From positions 1 through 38,808 of IMG/VR virus record IMGVR_UViG_3300045051_000613: a stretch of DNA of 38,808 bases; one strand, 5' to 3'. A program made the position numbers and the translations under genes. A model generated the notes under the pieces. That model saw nothing but the letters and a program-made list of their open reading frames with translations. It had not been told where the DNA came from and did no database searches. Source of the stretch: a virus. Position 1 is the first letter of the stretch. Each line of letters begins with the position of its first letter. Positions 3,628 to 20,020 of the stretch are shown in pieces.

Positions 3628-3762
3628 TTATTTCTTGCTCGTCGACTTGCCGGCCTTACTGAGGGCAATCGCGACGGCTTGACGCTGTGGACGGCCTGCA
3701 GCAATCTCACGTTTGATGTTGGCGCTCACGACCTGCGGACTCGATCCTTTACGAAGCGGCAT
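3628..3762 (-). CDS. Small basic phage protein (DUF6496-like)
   Basis: A 44-residue product beginning [16 protein letters not shown] and continuing with a basic helix ([21 protein letters not shown]) and a Lys/Ser tail. The pattern M-P-(K/R)-x-G-x-S, followed by I-(K/R)-x-x-x-x-x-G-(R/K)-P-x-x-Q-A-V-A-I-A-L, is that of a widespread small phage protein often annotated DUF6496 and often found near terminase and portal genes. Its basic nature fits nucleic-acid binding, but its function is not established. It overlaps the end of the terminase gene by 14 bases and stops four bases before the next start. Confidence 0.75.
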
Positions 3763-6241
3763 AAGAAGCTCCTTTGTGGGCTTGTTCGCGCAAATACTGA
3801 ATGTCCCAGGCGACCGAGCCCTTGACGGGCGGCTTCAGGGCTTCCGATCGCGGCGGACCCGGGCGAGAATTCGCGCCGTACCGCCACGCGTCGGCGCAGT
3901 TGTGAACCAGGATGCCGTTGGCGACGAACTCAGGGCATCCGTCAACCGTGAGGTTGTAAATCGGGACGGGCTGCGCATGTTGCGCGACGTCGATGGCCCG
4001 CACATGACAGGGAACAACAGACCGTGGGGAAATAGCGATTACACCGGAAGACCGTCTGGCAGGACGCGCAGATGCGATCTTCGTCATCGAGTCGGCGAGC
4101 CCGTCGCCATGCAGACTTGCAATTGTTTGAGCAAAACTTCCCACGAAGGGTGAGCGTCTCGTACGCCCGGCTGCACTGAGCGCAGATATTTGGGCGAGGT
4201 CGCCGCTGGCCGAAGACGACCAGTCCATGAGCCCGATGCCAAGCCCGACCTTCGGGCGAGCGTTGCCACGCCACGGCGTCTCGAACAAACCGCGCGACAT
4301 TCGCCGGACTCGGGCGACGGCCTTTGCCATGCTCGCTGAGATGGTCGAAGGCTGGCACGCACGCGAGATTGTCGAGCGCGTTGTTTTTGGGATTGCCGTC
4401 GCGATGGTGGATGTGATGGCCTGGTGGAATCGGTCCCACCAGCCGCCGCCACTTGGCGCGCGCATCGCGGTGACACCAGGAGAGGTCTGGTCGCATAAGA
4501 GGTCATCTCCGACGCATAAGAAACTCAGCCATGTAAATCCGTTCGCCTGCGCCACAGGATGCCTGGCCGTACCGGTGAGGCACCGTCCGTCACTGGTGGT
4601 GAGCGTCCATGTTTCCTGCGTGACGCCGGTTTGCCCAGCCCAGATGACAGATTGCCAGCCATCGCGCGTCCACACTTCCGCGCCAGGTCGCACTTCATCG
4701 ATCCGTTGTTCACCGTTGCGCGTCGTGATCATCGTGTCGCCGACGAGACAGTGGTCCTCGCCGTCACTATTCACATCATCGGCATCGTGTAGTGACTGCT
4801 CTTGAATGGGAATGGTCCGCAGAAAGTAGCGGCACGACGGGTCGATCGTGAGCCACGGGCGACCATCTGGCGCGGTTCGCAGCAAATCGTGGCAATTCTG
4901 CCAGCCGTTCTTGCCGCGTTGATTATCGGCCCGCCGCATGGGCAATCCGACCTTGCGAAACGTCTCGACAATGGCTTTGCCGTGGTCCTGGCCGGTTTTG
5001 TTCCACATCGAGGGGTCGGCCGCGACGTACCGGAGCCGTCCCGTGTCGGTCAGAAGACTCCGCGTCACGTCCATCATCTTCACGGCCACGTCCACCGGGT
5101 CTTCGCGGCTGCCTTTCAACTCATACGCGATGTGCAAGTGCTGATCGGGGAGCACAGCCCACCAGAGCACGACGTACGGTTGGTTGAACCCCCAGTCCAT
5201 CGACGCAAACCACTCAGTCCCACGCGGCACCGCCACCTCTCTGACGTGCCACGGGCGGCCGTTGACAAACGACTTGAACGCGCCGAAGAATGCGCCCTCG
5301 AACACGCTCCAATCGCCTTCAAGGAGTTGCGATCGACGCGGCTCGGGCATCTGGTCGAGGTTGTCGCGGTAGGTCAGATCAATGTACGGGTTGTCATCGA
5401 CCTTGGCTTGGACGAAGGTGTGCCACTCGGGCTTGTACTTCGGGTAAATGTCGGGATTGGGCTGTTTGGTGATGAAGAAATCGCGCACCCAGAGCGCACC
5501 TCGGGGCCCTGGGTTACTCGCCGCCCACACTTTCGGCCCGCCGAGATGCTTCATGACCTCGGGGTTCGACGTGCGCGCGCGAGAAAACAGTTCGATCATG
5601 TCGCCCTCGTCGTAGGTGACGAGTTCGTCGGGCACGATCACGTCGTATTCGCGCGACAGGTACCCTTCCTTCGCGACTTTGTCGTCCATATGGCCGCCGA
5701 CAATCGTCGCCCCCGTCTGCGGGAAGTACATGCGCCGTTCGCCCCGGTTGTATTTCGCGCCAAAGAGGGCCGCATCGCGCTCCATGTTGAGCAAATGCGT
5801 CTCTTCGAGGTCTTTGTAGTTGGCGCGGATGATGATCGCGCGCAATCCCTTGACCGTCAGGCACACGCGATACAACCCCCAGCGCAAGACATGCGATTTC
5901 GCGCCTCCGGCCGCGCCACCATAGAGGGTCCGCACGAATTGCCGTTGCGCCTGGAAGAATTCGACCTGCCGGGGCGTGGGCAAAAACACCTGCCGCATGA
6001 CGCCGCCGTGATTGATGGCAATCCCCCACGCGTACTGGCGTTTGACACACGCGGGCGTCGGGCATTCCCACTGGCCGGTGGGCACGGACTGAAAATGCGC
6101 CCCGCACCAGCAGCAGGTCGCGTGCGGATGCGTGAACACGCCCGCCTTGGCCTCGACCGCCTTCGGGACTTGTGGCGTAGGGAGCGGCGGGGGCGGCGGG
6201 ACCGCCCCTTTTTTGCGCCGGCCGGAGCCTTTGCCGCCCAA
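3749..6241 (-). CDS. terL: Terminase large subunit with in-frame intein
   Basis: This 830-residue precursor is the ATP-driven DNA-packaging motor and headful nuclease. The N-extein (residues 1-497) has a Cys-pair region (CCWC and CPTPAC, residues 43-65), Walker [10 protein letters not shown] (108-116), Walker B VIVPDE (201-206) and coupling motif ASNPGP (241-246). The RNase-H-like nuclease has D349 (SMDWG) and D409 (AADPS). A 284-residue intein follows H497. The C-extein (49 residues) begins CADAWRYG, so splicing would rebuild D-H-C-A-D, the H-x-x-D nuclease motif. The mature enzyme would be 546 residues, normal for the family. The only usable start is TTG at 6241, since an in-frame TGA lies two codons upstream; the start MGGKGSG is common in phage terminases. 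Unspliced protein should lack nuclease activity. Confidence 0.93.
3899..4750 (-). other. Intein inserted in the terminase nuclease motif
   Basis: The intein runs from Cys1 (codon 4750-4748) to Asn284 (codon 3901-3899) and is followed by a Cys+1. Block A is [13 protein letters not shown], block B includes GTARHPV with the usual T-x-x-H, and blocks F/G are [11 protein letters not shown] and ANGILVHN, with the standard penultimate His and terminal Asn. These are all the residues needed for class 1 protein splicing. About 84 N-terminal and 25-30 C-terminal residues are recognisable, matching a mini-intein splicing domain. The roughly 160 residues between them, rich in Ser, Ala, Arg and Thr, resemble no domain, because this stretch is the off-frame reading of an HNH endonuclease gene. 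The insertion separates H497 from the catalytic Asp of the C-extein. Confidence 0.9.
3942..4496 (-). CDS. HNH homing endonuclease nested out of frame inside the intein
   Basis: 184 residues in the -1 frame relative to the terminase/intein. The motif [19 protein letters not shown], then [16 protein letters not shown], is a textbook HNH (H-H...N...H) of intron/intein-associated endonucleases. Two Cys-rich fingers follow: CAQC with FCSNNC, and CASC with CCSLSC, probably DNA-recognition modules. It has its own ATG at 4496, with GGAG about ten bases upstream, and stops at 3942, inside the codons for the intein's last splicing block. It would cut intein-less terminase alleles and spread the intein. 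The alternative is an ancestral in-frame endonuclease displaced by two compensating indels, or assembly errors at both junctions. Confidence 0.82.
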   Translation of the reverse strand: MRPDLSWCHRDARAKWRRLVGPIPPGHHIHHRDGNPKNNALDNLACVPAFDHLSEHGKGRRPSPANVARFVRDAVAWQRSPEGRAWHRAHGLVVFGQRRPRPNICAQCSRAYETLTLRGKFCSNNCKSAWRRARRLDDEDRICASCQTVFRCNRYFPTVCCSLSCAGHRRRATCAARPDLQPHG

Positions 6242-6282
6242 CCGTCAGGCCCCCGTATCCACAGGGCACAGTCTACGCCCAA

Positions 6283-6300
6283 CTGTCAAGACTTTGACAG
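6283..6300. promoter_or_regulatory. Inverted-repeat operator in the terminase divergent region
   Basis: CTGTCAA and TTGACAG flank a 4-base spacer (GACT). The core TGTCAA-N4-TTGACA (6284-6299) is identical in spacing to the sites at 261-276 and 7956-7971. It lies in the 94-base divergent gap between the terminase start (6241, minus) and a plus-strand gene at 6336, so one regulator could control both directions. The TTGACA half resembles a -35 box, but no correctly spaced -10 is convincing. Confidence 0.6.
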
Positions 6301-6335
6301 TGACACCGCGAGAGCCGCTTTGTTATCGTCGCGCC

Positions 6336-6578
6336 ATGAACATGCACGAAGGGTTTCTGAAGGCGATCGAAGGCTGCCGCATCACACACGACGCACTCGG
6401 AGACATCATCGACGGCCTACGGGCAGCCCAGGACGGCGGCCGCCGCCTCGAAGAGACTATCAGCACCTTGAACGCCTCCAACGAGGCCTTGAAAGAATCC
6501 GTCGACGAATTAAAGGCGATGATCCTCGATCAGGGCAAGGAGATGAAGGCCTTGAAAGACCGGCTCAATGGGCACTAA
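6336..6578 (+). CDS. Coiled-coil small protein, first gene of the 6.3-7.9 kb cassette
   Basis: 80 residues, beginning MNMHEGFLKAIEG. From about residue 30 to the end the sequence is almost all helix-forming, with heptad-like hydrophobic spacing (ETISTLNASNEALKESVDEL and on), so a coiled coil is likely. It is not part of a longer upstream frame: the ATG at 6336 is the first good start after the divergent control region. The last 11 bases overlap the next gene. No function is assigned; small coiled-coil proteins of this sort often act as adaptors or inhibitors. Confidence 0.6.
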   Translation: MNMHEGFLKAIEGCRITHDALGDIIDGLRAAQDGGRRLEETISTLNASNEALKESVDELKAMILDQGKEMKALKDRLNGH

Positions 6579-6987
6579 CCTTGACGTGCCGCGCACCATT
6601 TTTGCCGCGCTGCGGGCGCTCCTAGATCAGGCGGGGATCGCACACGGCGACTACGAGACCGTCTTGGATTTGGAGCCAATTCGGATACATTCGCGTGGCG
6701 GGCCGGTGCATGACAATGTGGTGGTGACGTCGCTCCTGTCGAGCCGAACGAAAGAGGGCCGCGTCGAACTCACGCTCAATGAGTCCGTCACGCAGATGTC
6801 GCTCGACAAGGCCCGCGAGGTCGTGGGGATGCTGCAGCAAGGGATCGAGGCCGCCATCACCGATCAGATGCTCTATGCGTTCCTCACCTCTCAGACAATC
6901 GGCCTCGACGATCAACAGGCGGCAGCCGCCCTCCAAGACTTCCGTGTGCTTCGGCAGGGCACGGCAGACATCGTCCGGCCGCACTAA
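6568..6987 (+). CDS. Unknown 139-residue cassette protein
   Basis: It begins MGTNLDVPRTIFAALRALLD. An N-terminal helix is followed by a beta-rich middle (DNVVVTSLLSSRTKEGRVELTLNE) and two C-terminal helices (LDKAREVVGMLQQGIEAAI and DDQQAAAALQDFR). No enzymatic motif or cysteine pair is present. It overlaps the preceding gene by 11 bases and is in the same operon. I do not recognise the family. Confidence 0.65.
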   Translation: MGTNLDVPRTIFAALRALLDQAGIAHGDYETVLDLEPIRIHSRGGPVHDNVVVTSLLSSRTKEGRVELTLNESVTQMSLDKAREVVGMLQQGIEAAITDQMLYAFLTSQTIGLDDQQAAAALQDFRVLRQGTADIVRPH

Positions 6988-6995
6988 TTTGGCAC

Positions 6996-7133
6996 ATGAT
7001 GACCCGAGCACAAGCGACCGCCCTACGCCATCCCTGTCGGCTCGCGATTGAGACAGCGCATCCACGCTTCGGGTCGATCTTGAATGGCGGCCGGTGTTCG
7101 CTCGTCCTGACGGTGAACTCCGGCTATGAGTGA
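6996..7133 (+). CDS. Very small protein, 45 residues, unknown
   Basis: The frame starts at ATGATG (6996), eight bases after the previous stop, and encodes MMTRAQATALRHPC and on to SGYE. It ends six bases before the next gene. The composition is ordinary (helix, then LNGGRCSLVLTVN strand). It is kept because it fills the gap between two coupled genes in frame and on strand; independent support is weak. Confidence 0.4.
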   Translation: MMTRAQATALRHPCRLAIETAHPRFGSILNGGRCSLVLTVNSGYE

Positions 7134-7139
7134 CTGGAG

Positions 7140-7439
7140 ATGCACTTGGGCGGGCCCGTGTGGCACGCGAGTGTGGCACCCCGAGGCGGGACGTACTCCA
7201 AGGAGGCGTTGAAGCGGTTCGCGGTGGCAGCTCTGACCGGCGTGGGCGATCCCTCGCTCGGGGAGTGGGACGAGTACGGCGGCTACGCCTTTCATGTTCG
7301 ACGCCGACTGTCGATTGAGGAAGCGGCGACCGTGGGACCGGTGGTGGATGTGCGCGGGACCGAGGACGGACGGCGGCGGTGTGCCGCGCTGCGACGGTAC
7401 GTGCTCCCCGCGATGTGGGCTGAGGAATGCCATGACTGA
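7140..7439 (+). CDS. Small conserved-looking phage protein, unknown function
   Basis: 99 residues. The N-terminus GGPVWHASVAPRGG is followed by a helix (SKEALKRFAVAALTGVGD), a Trp-rich turn (GEWDEYGGYAFHVRRRLS) and an alpha/beta end. The W-H-A-S-x-A opening and the F-H-x-R-R-R-L-S segment resemble small proteins found in many temperate phages, but I cannot name a domain. It overlaps the next gene by eight bases. Two in-frame start options lie close together; 7140 keeps the conserved-looking opening. Confidence 0.65.
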   Translation: MHLGGPVWHASVAPRGGTYSKEALKRFAVAALTGVGDPSLGEWDEYGGYAFHVRRRLSIEEAATVGPVVDVRGTEDGRRRCAALRRYVLPAMWAEECHD

Positions 7440-7713
7440 CGCCTGGACGCCCGAGGACCTGATCCAGCGAGCCACGATGCTGCGGACCCTGATGCTCGAC
7501 ACCGCCGCGCACCAGTTTCAGGAGCTTCAGGCGGTGCGGACCCACGAGGCCGAACTCATCGAGACACTCACCGTGGCCGTGCGTCTCGCGAAAGAGGCGA
7601 CGAACGGCTGGGCCTGTTACGCCAAGCGCAAGATCGAGCATGCCGAGATTGCGCGGTTACATCAGGCCATTGACGCGCTCGACGAACTCCTGAAAACGCG
7701 TGACGAGCCATGA
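7432..7713 (+). CDS. All-helical small protein, unknown
   Basis: 93 residues, beginning MTDAWTPEDLIQRATMLRTL. The product is almost entirely helical, with long stretches of alternating charged and hydrophobic residues. The ATG at 7432 overlaps the upstream gene by eight bases, and the stop overlaps the next start as ATGA, so it is translationally coupled on both sides. Longer upstream extensions in this frame run antisense-like through the previous gene and are rejected. No function can be assigned. Confidence 0.65.
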   Translation: MTDAWTPEDLIQRATMLRTLMLDTAAHQFQELQAVRTHEAELIETLTVAVRLAKEATNGWACYAKRKIEHAEIARLHQAIDALDELLKTRDEP

Positions 7714-10560: not shown

Positions 10561-10811
10561 TGGCGAATACCTCGCTCTCGCGCGTGACTCTCTTTCGTGG
10601 GCCCGTCTCGTGGATGATCGACCTGCGCGACGATGCCACGGCGGCCGAAACCCTCGACTTGTTCGGCTCCACGATTCTGCCCTTGCCGTACACGCTCGCG
10701 GCCTCGCTCGATCGCGTGGTGCTGGGGCTCCGGCGTCAGCATCCGGCGATTGTGATTCGGTTCGCCGAACGCGCCGAACGTCACGTGCAGATGATGGGCG
10801 GTGCGCGATGA
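10560..10811 (+). CDS. Small alpha/beta protein, unknown
   Basis: 83 residues, beginning MANTSLSRVTLFRGPVSWMI. Strands (SRVTLFRG, SWMIDLRD, AIVIRFAERAERHVQMM) alternate with a helix rich in Ala and Leu (ETLDLFGSTILPLPYTLAA). It is coupled to genes on both sides by four-base or smaller overlaps. I do not recognise a family. Confidence 0.65.
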   Translation: MANTSLSRVTLFRGPVSWMIDLRDDATAAETLDLFGSTILPLPYTLAASLDRVVLGLRRQHPAIVIRFAERAERHVQMMGGAR

Positions 10812-11008
10812 GCCCCGCCACCAAGGAAGAAGCAACCGCCCTGATCGCTCGCCTCCATGAAGAGGAACGCCTCCGTAAACAAGCAAACGACATGGACATG
10901 GCCACTGACGCTGCGCTTGGACTCGTCAGTTTCGTTTTTTGGTCCTGCTGCCTCGTCGGCGCTCTCTACGGACTCGTGAAGTTCATCAAATGGGCCTGGG
11001 AGTCTTGA
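10808..11008 (+). CDS. Small single-span membrane protein
   Basis: 66 residues. The N-terminal 30 residues are charged and helical (KEEATALIARLHEEERLRKQ). Residues about 33-60 form one hydrophobic span (ALGLVSFVFWSCCLVGALYG) followed by a basic, aromatic end (KFIKWAWES). This suggests a cytoplasmic helix anchored by one transmembrane segment. The ATG at 10808 overlaps the upstream stop (ATGA). A role in superinfection exclusion or as a lysis accessory is possible but not shown. Confidence 0.65.
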   Translation: MSPATKEEATALIARLHEEERLRKQANDMDMATDAALGLVSFVFWSCCLVGALYGLVKFIKWAWES

Positions 11009-11044
11009 AGAGTCAGTTAACAGCCCGCTGTGAGTACGACCCGC

Positions 11045-11068
11045 GCCCCAGGGGTTCTGGGGCATTTT
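11045..11068 (+). terminator. Terminator-like hairpin with short T-tract
   Basis: GCCCCAG and CTGGGGC form a 7-bp stem with loop GGGTT, followed by ATTTT. It lies 36 bases after the membrane-protein gene and before the GTG start at 11086, the usual place for an attenuating terminator. Confidence 0.6.
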
Positions 11069-11085
11069 CCATTTGAGGAGACACT

Positions 11086-11379
11086 GTGACCAATCATCCA
11101 AACCGAGGGCCAAACCCCAATAGACCAGGCCGTACGCCACGGCCCGAGGAAGTCATCGCGCTTCGCGCCAAGCTCGGGTTGACACAAACGCAAGCCGGGA
11201 AAGTCATTCACGCATCCTTGCGCGCGTGGCAAGAGTGGGAGTCCGGCGGCCGAAGGATGCACCCGGCATTCTGGGAATTGTTCCGCAAGAAAACGCGCGC
11301 GTCATTGCTGGCGGCCGCGCCAGACGGGCCGCCTGTGGCACCGGTACCGCCTCCGGCCGAAGGAGGCGAACCCGAATGA
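11086..11379 (+). CDS. Helix-turn-helix regulator (XRE-like)
   Basis: 97 residues; GTG start at 11086 with GAGGAG seven bases upstream. After a Pro/Arg-rich N-terminus, residues about 22-60 form a helix-turn-helix: EEVIALRAKLGLTQTQAGKV followed by IHASLRAWQEWESGGRRMHP. The Trp-containing recognition region (L-R-A-W-Q-E-W-E-S-G) and short length match small phage and plasmid XRE-type regulators. The Pro-rich tail (PVAPVPPPAEGGEPE) is probably disordered. It may control this gene run. The stop overlaps the next start. Confidence 0.75.
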   Translation: MTNHPNRGPNPNRPGRTPRPEEVIALRAKLGLTQTQAGKVIHASLRAWQEWESGGRRMHPAFWELFRKKTRASLLAAAPDGPPVAPVPPPAEGGEPE

Positions 11380-11684
11380 GCCGCTATCCCAGAATCACGC
11401 GCGTGCACGACCATGAACGCGAGGAACGGCGGTATATGGTGGACGAGGGCGGGCCAGAACTGACCGGGCCCAGTTTTCTCACCCGGGCCGAATGCGCCGT
11501 CTATCTCGAAGAGGTCCGCGCCAGGATGCCGCCGAAGGCACCGAAAGCACCGAAGCCGGTACGCCGCTATTGCGACGTCTGCGGCGTGTGCCTGCGCCTC
11601 GAATGGGTGCCCGCCACCTGTCGCAAGTGCGGGGGCGTGGGGCCCGTGTGGAAGCGCCCAGTAAAGGCCACAGAGGCCGCGTAG
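11376..11684 (+). CDS. Zinc-ribbon-like protein
   Basis: 102 residues, beginning MSRYPRITRVHDHEREERRY. The N-terminal half is a charged alpha/beta stretch, then a Pro/Lys linker (PPKAPKAPKAPKPVRR), and the C-terminus carries YCDVCGVCLRLEWVPATCRK with a further Cys: two CxxC pairs typical of a zinc ribbon. The likely role is nucleic-acid or protein binding. It is coupled to the HTH gene by a four-base overlap and is the last gene of this plus-strand run. Confidence 0.65.
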   Translation: MSRYPRITRVHDHEREERRYMVDEGGPELTGPSFLTRAECAVYLEEVRARMPPKAPKAPKPVRRYCDVCGVCLRLEWVPATCRKCGGVGPVWKRPVKATEAA

Positions 11685-15615: not shown

Positions 15616-15807
15616 ATGGCGATGACGTGGACGGACGAGGAACGCACCGCGCTCGACCTGATGCGGCAGCGGGGCGCGTATCTGTCGGACGACGACTTGA
15701 TACGCGGGGCCTTGTTCTGGTACGCGCGGTTTCTCGACCTCGATCTGCCGCAGGACGACGTGTTTGCCTTGGCGCGGCCCGCGCCCAAGCGACGGAGACC
15801 TCGGTGA
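15616..15807 (+). CDS. Small acidic/aromatic protein, unknown
   Basis: 63 residues from ATG 15616 (or 15622). It begins MAMTWTDEERTALDLMRQRG. A short helix-turn-helix-like part (RQRGAYLSDDDLIRGALFWY) is followed by an acidic stretch and a basic tail (KRRRPR). The stop overlaps the methyltransferase GTG start (GTGA), so the two are coupled. The longer frame from 15553 has no ribosome site. Confidence 0.6.
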   Translation: MAMTWTDEERTALDLMRQRGAYLSDDDLIRGALFWYARFLDLDLPQDDVFALARPAPKRRRPR

Positions 15808-16553
15808 CGGCCTATTACTCAGAGCACGACGCGGGCGCGGCCGCGTGGCTCAGGGAGTTGATCGCGGATGGACAGATACCTGCCGGACACGTCGATGACC
15901 GCGACATCCTCGATGTCTGCCCCAACGATCTGGCCGGGTACACGCACTGTCATTTCTTCGCGGGCATCGGCGGTTGGGCGCTCGCTCTTCGACTCGCTGG
16001 ATGGCCCGACAATCGTCCCGTCTGGACGGGCTCTTGCCCCTGCCAGTCATTCAGCGCGGCAGGCGCGGGACGCGGGTTTGTGGACGAGCGGCACCTTTGG
16101 CCGGCATGGTTCGACCTCATCGCGCGGTGCCGTCCTCCGGTCGTCTTTGGTGAGCAGGTTGAGGCAGCGATTGGGCACGGCTGGCTCGACCTTGTTCAAG
16201 ATGACTTGGAGGGAATCGGTTACGCCGTCGCGCCGGTTGGTTTACCTGCTGCGTGCATCGGTGCGCCCCATGCCAGGCAGCGGCTGTGGTTTGTGGCAGA
16301 CACGGGGTGGACCGACACCGACCGCTGTGAAGGCGACTGGCGGGATATCCGTGTGTCGATTCGGAGGCAGCGGGGTGAGAAAGACCATGAAGCGATACCT
16401 CACCCACCGCGAAGTCTATGGGCCGATCAACCCCGACCTCCTATCGTGGCTCATGGGATTTCCGCCAGCGTGGAACTTGTGTGCGGGTACGGTAATGCGA
16501 TTGTCCCGCAAGTCGCGGCGGAAGTGATTGCCGCCTACATGGAGATTGCTTGA
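15804..16553 (+). CDS. C5-cytosine DNA methyltransferase
   Basis: 249 residues from GTG 15804. It transfers a methyl group from S-adenosylmethionine to C5 of cytosine. Motif I is HCHFFAGIGGWALALRLAGW, motif IV is the catalytic TGSCPCQSFSAAG (PCQ cysteine), motif VI is FGEQVEAA (the E of the ENV motif), motif VIII is APHARQRLWFVA and motif X is GYGNAIVPQVA. The order is normal, but the region between VIII and X is short, so target recognition must be compact; this is common in phage enzymes. No cognate restriction enzyme is near, so it is a solitary methylase, probably protecting the phage from host restriction. The GTG overlaps the previous stop. Confidence 0.9.
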   Translation: MTAYYSEHDAGAAAWLRELIADGQIPAGHVDDRDILDVCPNDLAGYTHCHFFAGIGGWALALRLAGWPDNRPVWTGSCPCQSFSAAGAGRGFVDERHLWPAWFDLIARCRPPVVFGEQVEAAIGHGWLDLVQDDLEGIGYAVAPVGLPAACIGAPHARQRLWFVADTGWTDTDRCEGDWRDIRVSIRRQRGEKDHEAIPHPPRSLWADQPRPPIVAHGISASVELVCGYGNAIVPQVAAEVIAAYMEIA

Positions 16554-16554
16554 G

Positions 16555-18012
16555 ATGCGACTCACCCTCATCGACCTCTCCTCTCTCGCTTTTCCCATCT
16601 GGCACATGGGCCAGTCCGACCCCAACCCCAACGTGGTCAGCGACCAGCTGGTGGCCCGGGTCCGCGCGCTCGGGGACGAGCACACCGCGATCTGCTGTGA
16701 TGCCGGCCGGTCATTCAGAAACGACGTCAGCGCCGACTACAAGGCCAACCGCAAACCCGAGGAACGGGCGACGTTGTACCACCAGATTGACCTGGCGCTC
16801 GACCGGCTGCGCGGCGATGGGTTTCCCGTCTGGTTCGTCAAGGGCTTCGAGGCCGACGACATCATCGCCTCGGCCTGTAACCGTGCGGCTGAAGATGGCC
16901 ACGACATCGTCATCGTCACCGCTGATAAAGATCTGCTGCAGCTGGTGACCGACCGCGAAGAGGGCGCAGGCAGTGTGGCGGTCAAGTCCATCAAGACCGG
17001 CGACATCATCGATGAGGCGGCGGTGGAAGCGCGCTTCGGGGTGGTGCCGCGTCAGATGCGCGACTGGCTGACCATCGTCGGAGACGCGAGTGACAACGTG
17101 CGCGGGGTGGCCGGCATTGGCGAAGTCGGCGCAACCAGGCTGCTGCAGCAGTACGACTCGCTCGACGCCATCTACACCCGCCTCGACACGCTCATCGCTG
17201 AGAAGGACATCAAACCGTCACAAGGGATCGCGCTCAAAGCCTTCGAAGTGCGCCTCGCGGAAGTTCGCACACTCATCACCCTTCGCACGGATGCGCCCGT
17301 CGCGTTTGAAGAAATTCTCGAACCTCGTACCCCAAAGGATGTACCGCCCATGGTGGATGAACCTGTGCTCGAAGACGCTGCCCCAGACGACATCGACGAG
17401 GCGTTGCCCAGCGTGCCGCCGCCGCCTGCGCCCGCAACCATCACGCCCAAGCCGGCGACCGTGCCGCCGGTCACCGGCACGCTCACAGTCATTCCCAATG
17501 GTCATCCGGTCGTGGACTGGAAAACGCAACTGGAGCCAACGTCCATGAGCGAGGCCATCAAACTCGCAGACCTGGCGTTCCACAGCAAGCAGTTCGGGGC
17601 GTACGGCACGCCGCAGGCCGTCCTGATGTCGCTGCTCGCCGGCCGGGAGTTGGGCCTCTCCGCGATGGCTTCGCTCCGTGCCATCAACATAATTTCGGGT
17701 AAACCCACGATGGCCGCTGATCTGATGCGGGCGCTCGTGCTGAAGTCTGGCGCGGTGAACTACTTCCGCTGCGTCGAGCGCACCAATGAGTCCTGCACCT
17801 TCGAAGCGCAGCGCGGCGACGATCCGCCCATCTCGCTCACCGTCACCATCGAAGACGCGCGCCTGGCGGGCGTCATCAAGCCCGACAGTGGATGGGTGAA
17901 GTACCCAGCAGACATGTTGTCCGCTCGCGCGTCATCAAAACTCGCACGCCTGATCGCGCCCGACGTCTTGCACGGCATCTACACGCCGGAAGAACTGCGA
18001 GAAAACCCATGA
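16555..18012 (+). CDS. FEN-type 5'-3' exonuclease fused to a RecT-like annealing protein
   Basis: 485 residues in one frame. Residues 1 to about 255 are a 5'-3' exonuclease/flap-endonuclease domain: D7 (LTLIDLSS), D49 and the arch-side SADYKANRKPEE, metal ligands E99, D101, D102 (FEADDI), D124 and D126 (TADKDL), D177 and D180 (VGDASDN), with the DNA-binding GVAGIGEVGATRLL. Residues about 256-326 are a Pro/acidic linker (PSVPPPPAPATITPKP). Residues about 327-483 match RecT-type single-strand annealing proteins: SLLAGRELGLSAMASLRAIN, IISGKPTMAADLMRALV, WVKYPADMLSARASSKLARL and GIYTPEEL. Such exonuclease and annealase partners are normally separate genes. The fusion would resect ends and load the annealase on the exposed strand. 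It overlaps the next gene (ATGA). Confidence 0.85.
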   Translation: MRLTLIDLSSLAFPIWHMGQSDPNPNVVSDQLVARVRALGDEHTAICCDAGRSFRNDVSADYKANRKPEERATLYHQIDLALDRLRGDGFPVWFVKGFEADDIIASACNRAAEDGHDIVIVTADKDLLQLVTDREEGAGSVAVKSIKTGDIIDEAAVEARFGVVPRQMRDWLTIVGDASDNVRGVAGIGEVGATRLLQQYDSLDAIYTRLDTLIAEKDIKPSQGIALKAFEVRLAEVRTLITLRTDAPVAFEEILEPRTPKDVPPMVDEPVLEDAAPDDIDEALPSVPPPPAPATITPKPATVPPVTGTLTVIPNGHPVVDWKTQLEPTSMSEAIKLADLAFHSKQFGAYGTPQAVLMSLLAGRELGLSAMASLRAINIISGKPTMAADLMRALVLKSGAVNYFRCVERTNESCTFEAQRGDDPPISLTVTIEDARLAGVIKPDSGWVKYPADMLSARASSKLARLIAPDVLHGIYTPEELRENP

Positions 18013-18470
18013 GCACCGAATCGCTCCTCACCGAAATTCGAGACGCGTTGCAGCAACTGGTCGCGGCGTCAAAGTCCGCGCCGGCCAAACCCGTGAAGCC
18101 GCCGCCCATGGTCGCCTGGCCTGGCGAACGGACGGTGGCCCCTGATTCAGAACTCGATGGCAAATACGGCGACCCGGTCATCAAGACCGCGCCTCGTGAC
18201 TGGAACGGCCCCTTCCGGTCAGGACAGGCGATGAGCGAAAGCGAACCCGAACTGCTCGAACTCGTTGCGGAACGCTGCGACTACTTCGCACAGAAGAACG
18301 ATCGCGAACGCCAGGTCACCGACCAGGGCGTGCCGAAATCGAAATTCGACCGGTCAAAGGCCGCGAAGGCGCGAGGCTGGGCAGCGCGCATCAGGAAGGG
18401 CTACAAGCCCGCTGTGGCGTCGATGACTGATGACGTGCCGTCCTGGGTAAGCGGCGATGACCCATTCTAG
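18009..18470 (+). CDS. Recombination-associated protein with SSB-like acidic tail
   Basis: 153 residues, beginning MSTESLLTEIRDALQQLVAA. A short N-terminal helix and a Pro-rich linker lead to a conserved-looking core (DGKYGDPVIKTAPRDWNGPF, then LLELVAERCDYFAQKNDRER and SKAAKARGWAARIRKGY). It ends SWVSGDDPF, close to the acidic -DDIPF tip by which SSB proteins recruit partners. Proteins of this kind often sit beside RecT-type annealases in phages. It may bind single strands or the annealase, but no OB-fold is evident. It overlaps the fusion gene by four bases and the next gene by 14. Confidence 0.65.
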   Translation: MSTESLLTEIRDALQQLVAASKSAPAKPVKPPPMVAWPGERTVAPDSELDGKYGDPVIKTAPRDWNGPFRSGQAMSESEPELLELVAERCDYFAQKNDRERQVTDQGVPKSKFDRSKAAKARGWAARIRKGYKPAVASMTDDVPSWVSGDDPF

Positions 18471-18801: not shown

Positions 18802-18877
18802 TACGACGCGGCTCCTCGGGCTCATCGGTCTCGCCTTGTTTGCTCTGGGTGTGCGCGTCGTTCTGGAGGGCGTGTTC

Positions 18878-20020
18878 ATGAGCCTGATACGCGCCGACGC
18901 GCGGCAGTTGCCGATCGCCGATGGCGTCGTGCACTGCTGCGTCACAAGCCCGCCGTACTTCGGGCTGCGGGACTATGGCACGGCCACATGGGACGGCGGC
19001 GACCCAGCCTGCCCGCACGCCGTGCGGCGATGGGACGGGCCGAAGCAGACGCAAGGGGCAATGAGCGCGCACGCGGCCAAAGCGGATCGGCTCGACCGGC
19101 GCGAGTGCATGTGCGGAGCACGGCGCATCGACCAACAGATTGGGCTGGAGGCGACACCGGCCGCCTACATCGACACGCTCGTGGCGGTGTTCCGTGAAGT
19201 GTGGCGCGTGCTGGCTGATGACGGAACGTGCTGGGTGAATCTTGGCGACAGTTACGCGGGTAGCGGTCCATCGGGCGCGTCGTACCAGTCTGAAACGACA
19301 AAGCGACGGGCGGGACTGGCAGTTGATGGCGCGTTCCGAATTAGTAAGCGGCTCGGGCCGCGCGGGTTGAGTTATGCCGAGAAGAAACCGGTCGCGCCAG
19401 TGGGTTGGAAATCGAAAGACCTGCTGATGATGCCCGCACGTCTGGCGCTCGCGCTCCAAGCCGACGGCTGGTACCTGCGGAGTGACATCATCTGGGCGAA
19501 GCCCAACCCCATGCCAGAGTCGGTGACCGACAGGCCCACGAAGTCGCACGAGCATCTGTTTTTGCTCACCAAAGCCGAGCGGTACTACTACGACGCGACG
19601 GCGATTGCGGAACCGGCAAACCTGACCGGAAAAGGGAACGCGCGTTCATTCCGTGGCGGAGGCGCGTATATCCAGAATCGCAGCTTCGACAACGATGCGA
19701 CCGTCGCGAGAGAGACGCACGGGAACATCGTCCCGACGCTGCCCACGGAGCGCAACAAGCGCGACGTGTGGACCGTGCCGACGCAAGCCTATGCGGACGC
19801 GCACTTCGCCACGATGCCCGAGGCGCTCGTCGAGCCGTGCATCCTGGCGGGCTGTCCACTCGGCGGCCTCGTGCTCGACCCGTTCTGCGGCACCTTCACG
19901 GTGGGCGCAGTCGCCGCCCGTCTCAGCCGCCGCGCCGTCGGCGTCGATTTGTCCTACCAACACCTGGCCGCTGAACGTACCGCGCAGCGCGGCCTGATGT
20001 TCGCGGAGGCCGTCTCATGA
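18878..20020 (+). CDS. N4/N6 DNA methyltransferase (beta-type)
   Basis: 380 residues. The catalytic motif IV TSPPYFGLRDYG lies near the N-terminus (residues about 24-35) and the SAM-binding motif LDPFCGTFTVGAVAARLSRR near the C-terminus, the beta-type order of N6-adenine/N4-cytosine methylases. A Cys-rich insert (DPACPH and ECMCG) lies at about residues 45-85. The segment DIIWAKPNPMPESVTDRPTK is typical of the PF01555 group. ATG 18878 has GGAGG eight bases upstream. An in-frame extension to 18788 would add a hydrophobic N-terminus and overlap the previous gene, so it is less likely. With the C5 enzyme it could give two methylation patterns. The last four bases overlap the next gene. Confidence 0.9.
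   Translation: MSLIRADARQLPIADGVVHCCVTSPPYFGLRDYGTATWDGGDPACPHAVRRWDGPKQTQGAMSAHAAKADRLDRRECMCGARRIDQQIGLEATPAAYIDTLVAVFREVWRVLADDGTCWVNLGDSYAGSGPSGASYQSETTKRRAGLAVDGAFRISKRLGPRGLSYAEKKPVAPVGWKSKDLLMMPARLALALQADGWYLRSDIIWAKPNPMPESVTDRPTKSHEHLFLLTKAERYYYDATAIAEPANLTGKGNARSFRGGGAYIQNRSFDNDATVARETHGNIVPTLPTERNKRDVWTVPTQAYADAHFATMPEALVEPCILAGCPLGGLVLDPFCGTFTVGAVAARLSRRAVGVDLSYQHLAAERTAQRGLMFAEAVS

Follow-up and report, generated by a model that had tools for sequence, protein, structure and literature searches.

The closest described counterparts of the locus reported here are the λ Red (Exo and Redβ) and RecE/RecT (EATR/SynExo) systems, in which a 5'-3' exonuclease works with an annealer of the RecT/Redβ fold. 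A 2019 paper, listed among the references of PMC9512822, states in its title that the C-terminal domain of Redβ binds both λ Exo and SSB; PMC9512822 itself poses as an open question how trimeric λ Exo and oligomeric Redβ work jointly at a ratio of 1:1. For the phage RecTs of Firmicutes, PMC8093625 describes YqaJ or DUF3799 exonucleases as separate proteins; the words "fusion" and "fused" are absent from its accessible part. Viral recombination does offer precedents for a nuclease of the FEN type, among them T7 gp6 and a poxvirus FEN1-like recombination nuclease, the latter found among the references of PMC7824862. No fusion of an exonuclease to a single-strand annealing protein (SSAP) was found in the open-licence papers searched, including the available portions of PMC8093625, PMC7824862, PMC9512822 and PMC3695502.

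The window, i.e., the whole stretch of DNA analyzed here, corresponds to an IMG/VR virus record in its full length (38,808 bases) and harbors a gene (16555..18012, + strand) in which predicted FEN and RecT-like domains are joined in a single chain, as judged from the reading frame, Pfam and PHROG profiles and recurrence in IMG/VR. The frame runs from the ATG at 16555 to the TGA at 18010-18012 and encodes 485 aa plus stop. That both domains share one unbroken frame had been proposed by a first-pass annotation of this DNA, and it is the case: internal stops number zero, and neither a stop nor a frameshift lies within 17350-17550. A frameshift or chimeric-contig artefact is ruled out, as the same frame is seen in many independent metagenome contigs; because this single frame recurs in 67 records, the fusion is no product of chance or assembly. 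The chain starts with a FEN/PolI-type 5'-3' exonuclease domain (aa 1-256; 16555..17322, +), delimited by Pfam, Foldseek and metal residues, in which an N-terminal resolvase-like domain is followed by a C-terminal SAM fold (H3TH). A Pro/acidic linker (aa 257-325; 17323..17529, +) with 26% Pro and 14% Asp/Glu leads to the putative annealing part (aa 326-485; 17530..18009, +), with the annealing domain proper at aa 326-476. Profiles and fold place it in the RecT/Redβ superfamily; it ends with the annealing core and lacks a C-terminal docking domain. Structure prediction of the whole chain, an idea of the first-pass annotation, gives an AlphaFold2 model (from an alignment of 26 fusions) with two confident domains and a disordered linker (pLDDT <50 at aa 263-319, 17341-17511); the orientation of one domain relative to the other is undefined (pTM 0.55). 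Across 26 fusion sequences, the linker measures 57 to 129 aa and is Pro- or Ala-rich and acidic throughout.

Within the nuclease half, two Pfam families score above their cut-offs in the window: 5_3_exonuc_N at aa 3-162 (90.1 bits, 1.7e-25, cut-off 34.3) and 5_3_exonuc at aa 164-252 (67.1 bits, 2.1e-18, cut-off 40). The NCBIfam models for DNA polymerase I and Xni/ExoIX align with aa 3-251 and aa 44-244, respectively, far below their full-length cut-offs. Foldseek returns Escherichia coli ExoIX (3zdb) as the top match of this half (2.5e-18, TM 0.85 by target length), followed by plastid exonuclease 1, a mycobacterial FEN and T5 FEN. Nine acidic positions (D7, D49, E99, D101, D102, D124, D126, D177 and D180), which we take to be the metal ligands, are conserved in 62 of 62 fused sequences save one row gapped at D7; R55, Y62, K63 and R66 of the same domain are present in all 62. 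The earlier proposals of a FEN-type N-terminal part and of a full set of 5'-3' exonuclease metal-binding residues are thereby borne out, the former by the Pfam profiles and the ExoIX fold match and the latter by the conserved acidic positions. Sequence and model place the N-terminal half in the PolI/ExoIX-type FEN family, and 5'-3' nuclease activity would be expected of it.

At the other end of the chain, aa 356-483 match the RecT-like families phrog_561 (2.3e-25) and phrog_4171 (9.9e-21). In the window, the Pfam RecT model scores 13-15 bits, below its cut-off of 24; in relatives, it exceeds the cut-off in L124 (33.3 bits) and remains below it in L131 and L133. When a profile of the annealing domain is compared with PDB sequences, Redβ is the sole match (2.2e-4); a PDB search with the single sequence of the RecT half gives chance matches only. 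Taken alone, the annealing domain has a pLDDT of 90, and VIA-align against 998 chains ranks Redβ (7ujl) first with a Z of 8.6 over 135 residues and LiRecT (7ub2) second with a Z of 6.9, followed by dsRBD and Rad52 at Z 6.7 and below; the margin of LiRecT over dsRBD is small, and the sequence profile evidence therefore matters. Redβ (9.6e-5) and LiRecT are also ranks 1 and 2 in Foldseek with the annealing domain alone, and both appear in the search with the whole chain at a probability of 1.00. W143 of Redβ is one of two almost universally conserved residues according to the accessible text of PMC9512822; W447 of the fusion aligns with it and is Trp in 60 of the 62 fusions, the other two having a Tyr and a gap. 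The first-pass annotation had described the C-terminal part as RecT-like, a view that a profile search pointing elsewhere would have refuted; the PHROG 561 and 4171 profiles and the Redβ/LiRecT fold uphold it. This half is thus assigned, on profile and model, to the RecT/Redβ superfamily, and would presumably both anneal and oligomerise.

The single-chain form is found again in dozens of uncultured phages of diverse kinds. Successively wider IMG/VR scans, in which each locus was frame-checked, yielded 92 loci in which a single frame encodes both domains, corresponding to 62 distinct sequences and to 67 records by contig name, window included; L037, L041 and L042, where the contig ends inside the FEN or the linker, were left out of the count. 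Identity of these FEN-RecT fusions to the window goes down to 28%. A scan with the RecT domain alone contributed 65 new locus ids, 42 of them fused and 23 unfused; five of the latter (L208, L216, L218, L232 and L251) are truncated by the start of the contig, so that neither state can be assigned to them, and four of these five carry the downstream tip gene described below and look like cut fusions. The first-pass annotation had also suggested a survey for a split form: among the IMG/VR loci examined, FEN and RecT were never found as separate frames, and 67 of 67 records are single-frame. In a tblastn search of 50,697 cultured-phage records, the chains P0001, L134, L131 and L141 matched 1507, 195, 441 and 1293 records, respectively, none with at least 80% coverage of the chain. 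The fusion was found in 0 of 282 plasmids and not in a first scan of bacterial genome contigs; in a second such scan, the best 80 of 588 (L043-L122) contain no RecT domain, and prophages may therefore still carry it.

Both domains are under purifying selection, with dN/dS of about 0.14-0.20: compared with L001, L005 or L006, the window gives 0.16-0.20 for FEN, 0.14-0.17 for RecT and 0.12-0.45 for the linker, at a dS near saturation. L005 and L006 (6001-7473 in each) are near-identical over FEN and linker, with zero synonymous differences in the compared linkers, and diverge more in their RecT halves, as if recombination near the junction had exchanged the latter.

Fused and unfused relatives differ in what surrounds the annealing core. 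The tail after the RecT core measures 0-13 aa in the 89 fused loci with closed ends, versus 59-298 aa in 21 unfused ones. Exonuclease content was compared between two sets of records, picked mainly by length and possibly fragments: 31 fused ones, out of 67, and 15 whose RecT is unfused. YqaJ is above cut-off in 0/31 fused records, window included, versus 7/15 unfused, and PDDEXK_1 in 0/31, window included, versus 3/15; one or the other is thus present in 0/31 versus 10/15, and five of the 15 unfused records show neither of these two Pfam families, by which alone the presence of another exonuclease was judged. In one fused record, G007, PDDEXK_1 reaches 15.1 bits, below cut-off. The FEN domain is present in 31/31 fused records (by selection, one each) versus 0/15 unfused, and an SSB domain in 1/31 versus 3/15. 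Because the RecT tail is short, no YqaJ or PDDEXK exonuclease passes its cut-off in the fused records searched and no FEN is found in the unfused ones, these comparisons suggest that the fusion stands in for the usual exonuclease/annealase pair. The record of L252 (G038), which has a stand-alone RecT and a YqaJ, carries at 7267-7572 an SSB domain within a 719-aa open frame.

The partner of the FEN domain is not always RecT. In a FEN tree, the 62 fused FENs and three others (L134, L141 and L142) form one branch with a support of 100, and in a RecT tree the fused rows lie on one side of a branch with a weak support of 57; both trees were made by a "quick" method and include long branches. L134 is a single chain composed of FEN, linker and a Sak4-like domain (phrog_124, 2.3e-19; AAA_24, 2.6e-19); it lies at 4932-7130 of an 83.6 kb virus contig and is directly followed by an SSB gene (7130-7627). 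A scan with L134 as query recovers L134 itself, so that the FEN-Sak4 type counts one record. In L141 and L142, the linker leads to a domain of phrog_3290, "single strand annealing protein" (2.8e-49 and 2e-49, respectively), and L264, added by a further scan, brings this type to three records; the C-terminal domain of L141 gives chance matches only against PDB sequences. Outside the respective loci, the records of L134, L141, L142, L136 and L137 show no RecT domain. Judged by these profiles, three types of annealase are joined to FENs of a single clade: RecT/Redβ, the phrog_3290 SSAP and Sak4. Because annealing is their annotated common ground, it is annealing, rather than other DNA binding, that would be the function coupled to FEN.

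The fusion is followed by a gene of 153 aa (18009..18470, +) that overlaps its stop codon by ATGA and whose product ends in SGDDPF. An SSB-like acidic tip had been pointed out here by the first-pass annotation, and the pattern is conserved in homologues: among the 38 C-termini that could be read, F is the last residue in 17 and W in another 17, the last 14 residues contain a mean of 3.5 acidic ones, and some ends read DDIPF, which resembles the E. coli SSB tip. A homologue of this tip gene lies downstream of 39 of the 62 fusions; it was not found beside 21, mostly of a divergent group, despite at least 1 kb of room, and the remaining two have too little sequence to tell. In L001, L005, L006 and L007, it remains nearby with intervening genes. 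The product of 18009-18470 has no Pfam or PHROG match, neither an OB fold nor any family is recognised in it, PF00436 is unmatched in the whole window, and no homologue was found in the cultured-phage collection. Of the suggestion that this product is a partner of the fusion, the synteny is favorable, whereas an OB-fold SSB is not recognisable in it; the tip protein is a candidate partner, nothing more.

Other features were noted around these genes. Genes for a C5-cytosine methylase and an N6/N4 DNA methylase (15804-16550 and 18872-20017, +) bracket the fusion together with the two genes behind it; in L001, a frame that by eye resembles the first of them (10735-11538) lies on the opposite side of the fusion. 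In the terminase large subunit (3752-6241, -), residues from about 498 to 571 make up a Hint/Vint (intein-like) region, with Hint_2 at 4e-06, just below cut-off. L007 includes a 522-aa frame (5462-7030) with a long run of degenerate "ATxAATxDAT"-like repeats.

The fusion is probably a natural single-chain exonuclease-annealase recombinase, in which FEN would resect and the tethered annealer would load at once, 1:1; its activities, their polarity in vivo and their coupling are what we infer. The FEN domain would act on double-stranded ends of phage DNA, degrading the 5' strand so that a 3' single strand is left; the RecT domain, on a flexible linker of ~60-130 residues, would be delivered 1:1 to the strand being exposed, oligomerise on it and anneal it to its complement. 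The covalent tie would do the work of the C-terminal domain with which Redβ docks λ Exo, and the tip protein would probably link the complex to SSB-binding partners or substitute for an SSB tail.

Direct coupling of resection and loading is a well-motivated hypothesis; its serious competitor is the trimming of flaps once strands have annealed. FEN enzymes are familiar chiefly as flap-cleaving and primer-removing nucleases rather than as enzymes of processive resection. RecT might anneal first, at lagging-strand gaps or host-resected ends, and the tethered FEN might then cut 5' flaps and RNA primers for ligation; the coupling would be real and the order of steps reversed. The PolI/ExoIX-like flap type of the nuclease, with its acidic residues and R55/Y62/K63/R66 complete, fits such an order, as does a long disordered linker permitting action at a distance; however, the count of YqaJ/PDDEXK (0/31 fused versus 10/15 unfused) looks as if FEN had taken over resection, and unfused RecT relatives do without a detected FEN (0/15). 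The reversed order is rather unlikely. It is quite improbable that FEN removes RNA primers as a replication enzyme and that fusion to an annealer merely equalises two early proteins, with no mechanistic coupling: primer removal has been proposed for the FENs of jumbo phages (PMC7824862), but the joining of FEN to RecT, phrog_3290 SSAP and Sak4 makes annealing the common partner function, and the C-terminal extension is absent in the fused forms only. Still more improbable is a gene with two products, in which RecT would be freed by an internal start or by proteolysis of the disordered linker and an ordinary pair would be the working form. An ATG with an upstream GGAG is present at codon 331 of the window gene, and similarly in L005, L006 and L010; yet this codon is Met in only 30/62 fusions, and ATG plus GGAG occur at that place in 4/26. 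A loose scan for internal starts finds some weak site in most linkers and hence carries little weight either way.

A broader reading can be put forward tentatively: FEN may be a general resection module that has been given at least three annealase types, the growing annealase oligomer acting as the processivity factor of a distributive flap nuclease and one polypeptide making up a complete double-strand-end recombinase. FENs are monomeric in known cases. The natural fusion fixes ratio and tether and swaps a trimeric exonuclease for a FEN; the coupling is therefore directly testable through changes of linker, nuclease or annealer. That one FEN clade occurs with three annealase types is evolutionary evidence of selection for physically linking a nuclease to annealing. 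In bacteria where two-protein pairs travel poorly, one-gene recombinases of uncultured phages could also serve recombineering.

In comparison with the fusion, λ Red and RecE/RecT have the same expected job and differ in using two chains and a PD-(D/E)XK exonuclease, where the fusion uses one chain, a FEN and an annealer without the C-terminal docking domain. The PolI 5'-nuclease domain, E. coli ExoIX (Xni) and T5 FEN (D15) have Pfam domains, fold and acidic residues in common with it; they are stand-alone or polymerase-fused, and we know of none joined to an annealase. T7 gp6 and gp2.5 likewise combine a FEN-family exonuclease with a phage annealing protein, but as separate proteins, and gp2.5 has an OB fold and is not a RecT. 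The same annealing domain is found at 35-41% identity, among the rows listed, in RecT-like proteins of phrog_561 and phrog_4171 from Gordonia, Komagataeibacter, Thermobifida and other phages. Unlike the fusion, the RecT-like proteins of L003 and L004 are stand-alone and extend 114 and 59 aa beyond the core, and that of P1312 adjoins a gene annotated as exodeoxyribonuclease VIII. The parts are thus of known kinds; relative to the cultured-phage collection at 80% coverage and to the open-licence literature, what is new is the single chain, the pairing of FEN with RecT at such breadth and the swap of annealases.
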